Source: Thiomicrorhabdus arctica DSM 13458 (lineage in GTDB: Bacteria > Pseudomonadota > Gammaproteobacteria > Thiomicrospirales > Thiomicrospiraceae). From it: DNA of 64,000 nt. Location: contig NZ_KB905899.1 of assembly GCF_000381085.1 (NCBI RefSeq), positions 992,001 to 1,056,000 on the forward strand, written 5' to 3'. The notes under the pieces were generated by a model, which made no database searches, had not been told where the DNA came from, and worked only from the letters and a program-made list of their open reading frames with translations. The position numbers were made by a program, and so were the translations under genes. Shown in pieces: positions 52,705 to 64,000 of this stretch. How positions within the stretch are numbered: the first letter of the stretch is position 1; each line of letters begins with the position of its first letter.

Positions 52705-52716
52705 ACCAGGCCTGGT
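52705..52716. repeat. 12-bp palindrome, copy 10
   Basis: Exact ACCAGGCCTGGT, first of two copies 25 bases apart between lysS and prfB. Confidence 0.9.
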
Positions 52717-52729
52717 GGTTTTGAAAACG

Positions 52730-52741
52730 ACCAGGCCTGGT
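52730..52741. repeat. 12-bp palindrome, copy 11
   Basis: Exact ACCAGGCCTGGT, second of the close pair; both are preceded by AACG. Confidence 0.9.
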
Positions 52742-60976: not shown

Positions 60977-61030
60977 ATTCACATTTCCAGGCTTACAAAA
61001 CAAGTTTTCAACGCGTTAATTAATCTAAAT

Positions 61031-61058
61031 TAAAACCGACCAGGCCTGGTCGGTTTTA
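61031..61058. terminator. 28-bp perfect palindrome after the MYG1 gene
   Basis: Perfect inverted repeat with the 12-mer in the centre (61039-61050), ending in A/T runs (TAAAACC / GGTTTTA), a likely terminator. Confidence 0.8.
61039..61050. repeat. 12-bp palindrome, copy 12
   Basis: Exact ACCAGGCCTGGT, at the centre of the 28-bp palindrome. Confidence 0.9.
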
Positions 61059-61143
61059 GAACTTTCCTTTAAACTTAACCTATTAGAGTCATTGTTAAAT
61101 TTAGCAAATAATCCGTGACTGATAAACCGTTGATGACTTATAG

Positions 61144-61419
61144 ATGATAGAAGACGCTTTAAATAAATTACCAGAAATACTCACCAGAGATTTGGAACGT
61201 AACCTCTGCGTCTGCAATGATGTGCTTAGAATTGATGTCATTCAAGCCATTGATGAAGGAGCGGATACGCTCGAAAAAGTACGTCAAAAAACCTATGCCA
61301 CTGATGGCAATGGCTGTTGCAAACGTCAAGTACAACGTCTTTTAGAGTGTTTATCTGAGGATACAGAGAGCACTCCCATTGCGTCCGAAAATATAACTCA
61401 CGATCCTTTCCCTAAATGA
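61144..61419 (+). CDS. BFD-like [2Fe-2S] protein with altered cysteine pattern
   Basis: A 91-residue protein resembling bacterioferritin-associated ferredoxin/NifU-middle domains: NLCVCNDVLRIDVIQAIDEG (C-x-C near residue 21) followed by GNGCCKRQVQRLLECL (about 55-70). In the family the second motif is C-x-x-C; here the first of these Cys is Asn and the preceding position differs, leaving an adjacent CC. If a cluster is bound the ligand set must be different. Weak ribosome-binding site; start at ATG 61144 is the only good choice. Confidence 0.75.
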   Translation: MIEDALNKLPEILTRDLERNLCVCNDVLRIDVIQAIDEGADTLEKVRQKTYATDGNGCCKRQVQRLLECLSEDTESTPIASENITHDPFPK

Positions 61420-61631
61420 TGAACACCTATTCCTTTGGTGCGCTTCCAGCACCATTTTGAACCAATCAAGCTAGTTTACAATCCAATAAATACCAACTCC
61501 TGCCACAACCTATTGAAAAAACTCTCTATTTAGTATTGGTACACCAATTGCTTATTACTATTTAATAAAATCGTAATACTTTATTAAACCGCTAAGTTTA
61601 AAGCCTTAATAAAACTACTTGAGAGAAATGA
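61420..61631. promoter_or_regulatory. Upstream region of the ABC transporter operon, with inverted repeats
   Basis: TTTAATAAA (61561-61569) and TTTATTAAA (61580-61588) are exact inverted 9-mers 10 bases apart, forming a 28-bp site. A second repeat ATTGGT / ACCAAT is at 61535-61548. Either may be an operator for the NikR-like protein encoded in the operon; this is inference. Confidence 0.5.
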
Positions 61632-62624
61632 ATGGCTATTTTTTCGAAATCCTGGACTACCCCTCGCGTTCCACTAGATAGACGCTCTAGAAATTGGTTA
61701 ACGATTGCCAGTTTCGCCATTCCACTACTGCTTTGGTCTTTAGTGAGTTATTCGCCTTATATCTGGCATCCACAGATGGAAATCACCGAACCAGGCGATG
61801 TCAGTTATTTTAAGGTAGGTACATTGATTGATAGAGATATTTATGACCGTGAGGTTGAAAAAATACGCACTCTTCAAAAAAGTTCCACAGAGACTCTACC
61901 TCAAAACCTAAAGTTGCCAGTAGGATTTCCAAGTAATCCTGTTTATTTACCTGCACCCGATGAAGTCGCTACCGCGCTCTATACCGCTTTTACCACCCCA
62001 CCAAAACGCACAAATGAGCCTTGGTTTCATGAGAGTCTAGGGCATTCCATACAAATTATAGCTTGGGGATTTTTCTGGGCGATGTTGTTTGGCTTACCCT
62101 TAGGTATTATGGCTGGCACCTATGATTCGGCTTCGCGTTTAATTGAACCCTTTACAGACTTCTTCCGTTATTTACCAGCACCCGCTTTTGGCGCTTTAGC
62201 GGTCGCAATTTTAGGGATCTATGATGCGCCGAAAATCGCCATTATCTTCATTGGTACTTTTTTTCAAATGGTTCTCATTACCGCCAATACAACTCGTACG
62301 TTAAATATGGCCTTTATAGAGGCTTCTCTGACATTAGGCTGTAAAGGTCTTTCTTTGATTCGTAGAGTAATTCTACCAGGCATTATGCCTGACCTGCTTC
62401 GCGATATGCGCATTCTGCTCGGTTGGGCGTGGACCTATTTAATTGTCGCTGAACTGGTTGGAACAAGCTCAGGAATCACTTGGTTTATTACTCAACAAGC
62501 ACGCTATAAAAACTTTGATAATGTTTTTGCAGCCATTTTAATTATTGGCTTGATTGGAGTGACCACCGATATGATTTTAGCTAAATTGGGTAAACGTCTG
62601 TTTCCTTGGAAAGATGGCCAATAA
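61632..62624 (+). CDS. ABC transporter permease (nitrate/sulfonate/taurine type)
   Basis: Inner-membrane permease of the TauC/SsuC/NrtB family, 330 residues, long for the family because of an N-terminal ~130-residue part with one hydrophobic segment (about 28-44) and a hydrophilic stretch. Five or six transmembrane helices follow (about 140-320). The EAA loop is EASLTLGCKGLSLIRRVILP (about 233-252), which binds the ATPase. No substrate-binding protein is in the window. It is co-transcribed with the next two genes. Confidence 0.88.
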   Translation: MAIFSKSWTTPRVPLDRRSRNWLTIASFAIPLLLWSLVSYSPYIWHPQMEITEPGDVSYFKVGTLIDRDIYDREVEKIRTLQKSSTETLPQNLKLPVGFPSNPVYLPAPDEVATALYTAFTTPPKRTNEPWFHESLGHSIQIIAWGFFWAMLFGLPLGIMAGTYDSASRLIEPFTDFFRYLPAPAFGALAVAILGIYDAPKIAIIFIGTFFQMVLITANTTRTLNMAFIEASLTLGCKGLSLIRRVILPGIMPDLLRDMRILLGWAWTYLIVAELVGTSSGITWFITQQARYKNFDNVFAAILIIGLIGVTTDMILAKLGKRLFPWKDGQ

Positions 62625-62636
62625 GGAGTGACAAAT

Positions 62637-63566
62637 ATGACGAATAAAACACAAGTAGAGCAACAATCCCACCCTTTAAATTCTTGGCAAACAGCAGAGA
62701 TTCAAGATCGAAATGAACGCATTTTAAAGCGTCCTAAGACTTTAGAAGTGAAGGGGCTGGATAAATCATTTGAACATAAAGGTAAAACTAACAAGGTTTT
62801 AAATAAGATTGATTTTACCGCTTATAAACGTGAATTTATCTGTGTCGTTGGTCCTTCTGGTTGTGGCAAATCGACTTTAGCGAGACTGATTGCAGGACTG
62901 GAAACGCAAGAAGCTGGCCACATATTGGTAGATGGTAAACATGTTACGGAACCCGGTCCAGATCGAGGCATGGTGTTTCAGAGCTACTCTCTGTTTCCTT
63001 GGATGTCAGTCAAACACAATGTTATGTTTGGCTTAACCCAGTCAGGCATGTCCAGAAATTCCGCTGAATCCGAAGCCTTTCAATGGATCGATTTAGTCGG
63101 TTTAACACCATTTTTAGATGCTTATCCGCATCAACTTTCGGGCGGAATGAAACAGCGTGTTGCAATTATTCGTGCCTTAGCCAATCAGCCTAAAATCTTG
63201 TTAATGGATGAACCCTTCGCGGCTTTAGACCCTCAAAATAGACTTAAAATGCAGCAGTATCTTCTTGAGATTTGGCAGAACATTGATATTACTGTTTTCT
63301 TTATTACCCACGATTTAGATGAAGCTATTTATCTCGCAGACCGCATCTTAGTGTTAGATGCTAACCCAGGACAGGTGAGAGAGGTACTCAATGTACCTCT
63401 ACCGAGGCCGCGCGCAGAAGATACCTTATTAAGTCCCGCCTTTATGGCAACCAAAGATTATTTAGAAACTCTGGTACACCCTCCACAACCAGAACTCGAT
63501 TTCGAAGAAAAGCTTAGCATGGTACGCCTCGTATCGGTTAATGCCCAAGTACCGGATATATTTTAA
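62637..63566 (+). CDS. ABC transporter ATP-binding protein (nitrate/sulfonate/taurine type)
   Basis: ATPase subunit, 309 residues. Walker A GPSGCGKSTLARLIAG (about 81-96), Q-loop FQSYSLFPW, signature LSGGMKQRVAIIRAL, Walker B ILLMDEPFAALD and the H-loop THDLDEA. The ATG at 62637 has AAGGAG eight bases upstream; a GTG at 62628 is an alternative and would overlap that site. The C-terminus beyond about 230 is variable. The stop overlaps the regulator start (TAATG). Confidence 0.93.
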   Translation: MTNKTQVEQQSHPLNSWQTAEIQDRNERILKRPKTLEVKGLDKSFEHKGKTNKVLNKIDFTAYKREFICVVGPSGCGKSTLARLIAGLETQEAGHILVDGKHVTEPGPDRGMVFQSYSLFPWMSVKHNVMFGLTQSGMSRNSAESEAFQWIDLVGLTPFLDAYPHQLSGGMKQRVAIIRALANQPKILLMDEPFAALDPQNRLKMQQYLLEIWQNIDITVFFITHDLDEAIYLADRILVLDANPGQVREVLNVPLPRPRAEDTLLSPAFMATKDYLETLVHPPQPELDFEEKLSMVRLVSVNAQVPDIF

Positions 63567-64000
63567 TGACTCAAAATGCCAAAACCAATCATACCTTAGT
63601 GCGAACCAGCGCCTCACTGCCAGCTAAAGTCTTAGAAGATTTAGACCAACTGGTCATTAAACGGGGCTTTAATAACCGCTCTGCGCTACTTGCTGAAATG
63701 ATTCAAAAAGAAGTCTCTTCTTATCGCCAAGAGTTCACCAATGAAATCATGGCGGGCACACTGACCATGGTATATGACCACTCTGTACCTGGACTACAAC
63801 TCAAATTGAATCATTTAAAACACCTGCATGTTGCTGAAATCATCTCATCCACGCAAAGTCAGTTGATGGAACAACAGACGCTTGAGGTCATACTGATGCA
63901 AGGTGGAGCTCAAGATTTAAATAGAATCAGTCAAGATATGCTCTCTCATCGCGGGGTCAAAACAGGCAATCTCTATCTCACCCACTCAGCGCTTCCTGCT
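63566..64000 (+). CDS. NikR-like ribbon-helix-helix regulator with missing nickel ligands (partial, cut by window end)
   Basis: 145 residues are visible before the window ends and no stop is reached. It has an N-terminal ribbon-helix-helix with KRGFNNRSALLAEMIQ (about 32-47) and an ACT-like NikR C-domain (about 64-135: TMVYDHSVPGLQ, TLEVILMQGG, DMLSHRGVKTGNLYL). Ungapped alignment with E. coli NikR from memory gives H86 for H76, but Q97, Q99 and T105 for H87, H89 and C95. The high-affinity nickel site is therefore not conserved. Stop-start overlap with the ATPase gene makes it a member of the transporter operon and its likely regulator. Confidence 0.88.
   Translation, partial: MTQNAKTNHTLVRTSASLPAKVLEDLDQLVIKRGFNNRSALLAEMIQKEVSSYRQEFTNEIMAGTLTMVYDHSVPGLQLKLNHLKHLHVAEIISSTQSQLMEQQTLEVILMQGGAQDLNRISQDMLSHRGVKTGNLYLTHSALPA

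Follow-up and report, generated by a model that had tools for sequence, protein, structure and literature searches.

A NikR-like regulator with an altered nickel site as the predicted repressor of a guanidine-related regulon in Thiomicrorhabdus arctica

What does a NikR-type regulator respond to, and which genes does it control, once most of its nickel-ligand positions carry other residues? This question is raised by a locus at the end of the 64,000-nucleotide stretch of the T. arctica DSM 13458 genome that we analysed (the window; G000 C1:992001-1056000). Here a TauC-type ABC importer permease (61632..62624), the first gene of its operon, is followed on the same forward strand by the importer ATPase (62637..63566, with an ATG start, and a GTG start at 62628) and by a NikR-like gene (63566..64000, forward strand) that is cut by the window edge. 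The initial annotation, made from the window alone, had proposed that this protein, a NikR relative, has ceased to sense nickel through the square-planar site, may respond to another ligand and controls the linked importer, and that its gene overlaps that of the ATPase by one base. The overlap is present as a TAATG junction between the ATPase stop and the regulator start. The rest of the gene, which that annotation had called for, was recovered from the assembly: the open reading frame (L003:3566-4045) encodes 159 amino acids and ends at window-equivalent position 64045, 45 bases beyond the window.

The protein carries RHH_1 and NikR_C domains, both above Pfam cut-offs, and is the sole NikR_C protein of the host genome. 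Solved NikRs are the best structural matches to its AlphaFold model (2bj3 at E 1.3e-13), which covers the monomer only, has moderate confidence (pLDDT 77) and is uninformative on the inter-subunit site. It has domains, fold and full-length homology in common with the NikRs of E. coli, H. pylori and P. horikoshii. However, while all five NCBIfam NikR models match it, each does so below its curated cut-off (best score 95.4 against 105; TIGR02793, 60.9 against 175.45), and the ligands differ. In E. coli NikR, nickel is held by His87, His89 and Cys95 from one subunit and His76 from its neighbour (PMC7055735). Alignment places H86, Q97, Q99 and T105 of the regulator at E. coli positions 76, 87, 89 and 95, the same set that had been read from the window. 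That reading would have been refuted by an alignment placing the ligands elsewhere; instead, full-length alignments to solved NikRs and to 24 orthologues agree, and misalignment can be ruled out. The H-Q-Q-T tetrad is invariant in 24/24 orthologues from 24 species, found in an order-level search of 63 genomes, whereas the canonical NikRs turned up by a class-wide search are H-H-H-C throughout.

On an alignment of 21 of the 24 orthologues, the invariant columns include K85, H86, V89, A90, E91, I92, I93, S94, Q97, Q99 and T105-V108, and the ACT domain ranks with the best conserved regions of the protein. As these columns run through the ligand region, the altered site is a fixed and constrained trait, and decay of the gene is ruled out by the strong conservation that persists there. 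A tree of 87 NikR homologues with their ligand states, also suggested by the initial annotation, separates the regulator clade from the H-H-H-C NikRs by a single branch (SH-aLRT 100); few columns were usable and the inner forks are poorly resolved. The clade extends through Pseudomonadota, beyond the host order too, and into Verrucomicrobiota, and the ligand cysteine is absent from every member. The other ligand positions vary from group to group, with YHHM in Thiobacillus and relatives, RHLV in Verrucomicrobiota, and HHHT, YNNT, HNNT, SNNI and YHNT elsewhere. The proposed loss of the square-planar site is thus supported at the sequence level, as a change that is fixed across orthologues and takes other forms in sister groups, though for nickel binding itself there are no data.

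Past the window edge, the importer operon continues with genes of the guanidine carboxylase pathway, and its order is ABC permease, ATPase, NikR-like gene, carboxyguanidine deiminase, guanidine carboxylase and allophanate hydrolase. Located 3' of the regulator are UAAP1 (TIGR03425) and UAAP2 (TIGR03424), the two carboxyguanidine deiminase subunits (CgdA/CgdB), both above cut-off; the carboxylase, of 1209 residues, matches TIGR02712 at 1760 bits, and the allophanate hydrolase beside it matches TIGR02713 above cut-off. Identity as a urea carboxylase was considered and is not supported: at the position of Asn1330 in the K. lactis urea carboxylase the operon's enzyme has an Asp (GAIDFTGD versus GAINFTGD), which is a published criterion for a guanidine carboxylase (PMC11410670), and the same guanidine-type Asp occurs in all NikR-linked carboxylases that could be read. 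Within the host order, the NikR-like gene is found in 23/23 genomes with a full-length carboxylase and in 1/40 others (Fisher p about 3e-16, uncorrected for relatedness). In the single genome with the regulator and no full-length carboxylase, G012, the regulator is found at one end of a contig of 6.4 kb.

Loci of beta-proteobacteria and others are arranged as binding protein, permease, ATPase, creatininase-like protein and type III glutamine-synthetase-like (GSIII) protein, followed by the NikR-like gene, CgdA/B, carboxylase and hydrolase. T. arctica has the genes for the binding protein and for the creatininase-like and GSIII proteins in a unit of their own on the minus strand (L003:11268-14648). 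The creatininase-like and GSIII genes are confined to NikR-type loci and absent from ten carboxylase loci of the riboswitch type; some NikR-linked loci have no such genes adjacent (L174). The substrates of the creatininase-family hydrolase and the type III glutamine-synthetase-like ligase at L003:11268-13463 may reveal the imported compound.

Upstream of the permease lies a dyad, TATTAC-N14-GTAATA (TATTACTATTTAATAAAATCGTAATA, 61553..61578, forward strand), that we predict to be the operator of the regulator. It is present upstream of the permease in 15/15 orthologous loci. When gaps of 8 to 20 were scanned for sites with at most one mismatch, a gap of 14 returned 21, 18 and 9 dyad sites in three groups and any other gap no more than 2, and the ten riboswitch-type carboxylase loci, used as a negative control, contained none at gap 14. 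Genome-wide, exact sites number about 2.4 per genome with the regulator and about 0.5 without it, and a reversed-pattern control gave about 0.9 per regulator-carrying genome. A chance origin is ruled out by the gap scan, the control loci and these counts. Across several phyla, the dyad sits before the gene that comes first in each unit, be it permease, binding protein, creatininase-like protein or desaturase, and is missing wherever that same gene lies inside a longer unit. Another dyad, the first to be spotted by eye (TTTAATAAA...TTTATTAAA), was set aside after the conserved TATTAC dyad emerged. The predicted operator and regulon are well supported by these comparisons, in the absence of binding data. 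A fourth exact match in the host genome (G000:C1:1530252-1530277; L156:3252) precedes a 504-residue gene that by eye resembles the thymidine phosphorylase family; it is probably due to chance, given the average of about 0.5 matches in genomes without the regulator.

The predicted operator is equal in total length and spacing to that of NikR. Written in the longer form, the dyad of Pseudomonadota is GTATTA-N16-TAATAC and has one altered base in each half-site relative to the E. coli NikR operator, GTATGA-N16-TCATAC (PMC7055735), and the E. coli form itself is found in 10/14 verrucomicrobial loci (at most one mismatch). It is the predicted targets that depart from those of NikR: the operators stand before units of the guanidine pathway, importer units and units associated with them, and not before nickel uptake or nickel-enzyme genes. 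This supports the earlier proposal that the regulator controls the linked importer, and sets that importer in a regulon of guanidine and nitrogen genes with no recognised nickel gene.

The regulator could still be a metal sensor in which H86, together with other residues, holds nickel or some other metal, as H86 and nearby histidines are retained, two or three histidines are kept in sister groups (HHHT, YHHM), and metal dependence is probable, judging by family, for enzymes of the regulon such as the creatininase-like protein. However, the cysteine is gone clade-wide, two histidines have become Gln in the group of the window, the ligand states vary among groups while regulon and operator stay constant, and we found the operator at no recognised nickel gene. 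We therefore consider continued metal sensing unlikely.

A sigma-54-type -24/-12 element (TGGTACACCAATTGC, 61537..61551, forward strand), identified by a match to the pattern GG-N10-GC, ends one base before the predicted operator. Such an element is present in 14/15 permease promoters, at a spacing of exactly one base from the operator in 12. It also occurs in 15/15 operator-bearing binding-protein promoters of the beta group, 15 bases from the operator in 14, and in 8/17 binding-protein promoters of the host family, all 8 bases from the operator; in shuffled sequence the rate is 1-7% (1% for the permease promoters). The element is absent from the creatininase-unit promoters. Operators at sigma-54-type promoters are a further difference from NikR. 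The arrangement suggests sigma-54 dependence and, by inference, a nitrogen-limitation signal through NtrC; since NtrC boxes (GCAC-N7-GTGC) were matched only in some promoters, NtrC as the activator is an inference only. Repression is inferred from the dyad, which covers or follows the expected start site.

Carboxylase operons of this kind are known under guanidine-I riboswitches, and both types comprise an ABC importer, CgdA/CgdB deiminase, D-type carboxylase and allophanate hydrolase. Unlike those operons, the locus studied here lacks a riboswitch, has a regulator gene within the operon and has a different importer, the binding protein of which is encoded in the separate unit with the creatininase-like and type III glutamine-synthetase-like genes and is only 27-34% identical to that of riboswitch-type loci. 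A hidden guanidine riboswitch was sought and not found at either scale: L003 yielded no Rfam match, and RF00442 and RF01068 were not found in the host genome. Across the order, a search of all 63 genomes gave no guanidine-I riboswitch. The genome-wide searches used stricter filters and may have missed weak matches. Of the genomes sampled class-wide, 31 encode the carboxylase; a NikR-like gene is linked to it in 8 of them and not in the other 23, and RF00442 was found in 0/8 of the former versus 20/23 of the latter (Fisher p 2e-5). The eight span seven families, and family f124 has one genome of each kind. Counts across genomes share ancestry, and some contigs are truncated.

A similar exchange is seen at a second unit, which encodes a fatty-acid-desaturase-family enzyme, a metallo-beta-lactamase-fold hydrolase, a xylose-isomerase-like protein and an EamA transporter (L155:607-2467 and L003:14840-16601). 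The guanidine-II riboswitch (mini-ykkC), an RNA element rather than a protein and absent from the genome of the window, was found in the order only in G024, G042 and G047, in each case directly before this desaturase unit; in T. arctica and several others, the NikR-type dyad stands in its place. This unit is another part of the predicted regulon and possibly represents an undescribed guanidino-compound pathway. The alternation of regulator and riboswitch is not absolute, since in the Thiobacillus locus L061 a guanidine-II riboswitch precedes the carboxylase and a NikR-like gene is present as well.

These observations also bear on whether the protein senses anything. It might be a ligand-free, constitutive DNA-binding protein that merely tempers sigma-54 activation, with all sensing done by nitrogen status; the ligand site is variable among groups, and the sigma-54-type promoters would supply a nitrogen signal without it. 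We regard this as very unlikely, because the ACT domain is conserved (K85, H86, V89-S94, Q97, Q99, T105-V108) in a manner unexpected under decay, and because the regulator alternates with riboswitches that do sense a ligand.

Collectively, the data make it likely that this is a NikR paralogue in which the NikR nickel site has fallen out of use, and that it serves as a dedicated repressor of a nitrogen-scavenging regulon for guanidine or a guanidino compound. In the mechanism that we propose, the regulator would bind the 26-28 bp TATTAC-N14-GTAATA dyads over or just downstream of the mostly sigma-54-type promoters and block transcription, while nitrogen limitation would activate these promoters, probably through NtrC. 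Guanidine, or a guanidino compound of the pathway, would bind the remodelled C-terminal ACT domain, the regulator would leave the DNA, allowing expression of the importer, deiminase, carboxylase and hydrolase genes. The NikR fold, altered ligand site, regulon membership, operator, promoter type and alternation with the riboswitch at the carboxylase are well supported by computation; what is inferred is the sign of regulation, the release of the regulator by its ligand, and that this ligand is guanidine or a close relative. All of this evidence is computational, and no binding data exist for DNA, nickel or guanidine.

The identity of the ligand rests on inference. It is quite possible, if somewhat short of an even prospect, that the same regulator and regulon respond to an imported precursor rather than free guanidine, such as a creatinine-like compound or a substituted guanidine processed by the creatininase-like and glutamine-synthetase-like enzymes. 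These enzymes accompany the NikR type only, and the NikR-linked importer is unlike that of the riboswitch type, as noted above. Furthermore, four genomes (G428, G429, G431 and G273) have the NikR-like gene with the importer alone and keep the carboxylase elsewhere under a guanidine-I riboswitch, an arrangement from which the ligand may be such a precursor. Against this, the guanidine-II riboswitch before the regulon's desaturase unit in the three sister genomes points to guanidine itself, and in some linked loci, L174 among them, no creatininase-like or GSIII gene adjoins the regulator. Guanidinium sites usually need an acidic pocket, and it counts against the main reading that a comparison of column preferences revealed no acidic guanidinium pocket specific to the clade.

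If free guanidine is the ligand, the clade would hold the first protein transcription factor to sense it, derived from a nickel sensor by conversion of the metal site into a pocket accommodating a small organic cation, and in several lineages it would have displaced the guanidine riboswitches that control the carboxylase; we advance this only tentatively. According to a 2025 review, riboswitches are the only known guanidine receptors besides transporters and enzymes (PMC12186494), and we found no published description of such a regulator in the open literature, a search that mostly did not cover subscription papers. The clade is nonetheless a concrete candidate whose predicted operator and regulon are defined and directly testable. 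The states HHHT, YHHM, HQQT and RHLV form a natural series of nickel-site loss, through which one could study how a metal sensor gains a new role, and they caution against annotating genes of this clade as nickel regulators. The regulon also points to associated enzymes of unknown substrate.

Two further features lie near the importer promoter. Directly upstream of it, a small BFD-type [2Fe-2S] protein (61144-61419) resembles part of the nitrite reductase NirB. A terminator-like inverted repeat (61030..61059) separates the operon from the upstream gene, and its core is a perfect 12-base palindrome, ACCAGGCCTGGT, with 12 copies in the window where none is expected by chance (for example 61039-61050, 52705-52716 and 52730-52741) and others in L003 at 5547, 8116 and 10774. 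The palindrome is present in related genomes too, both inside genes and in the terminator-like hairpin, and looks like a highly iterated palindrome of the host family.
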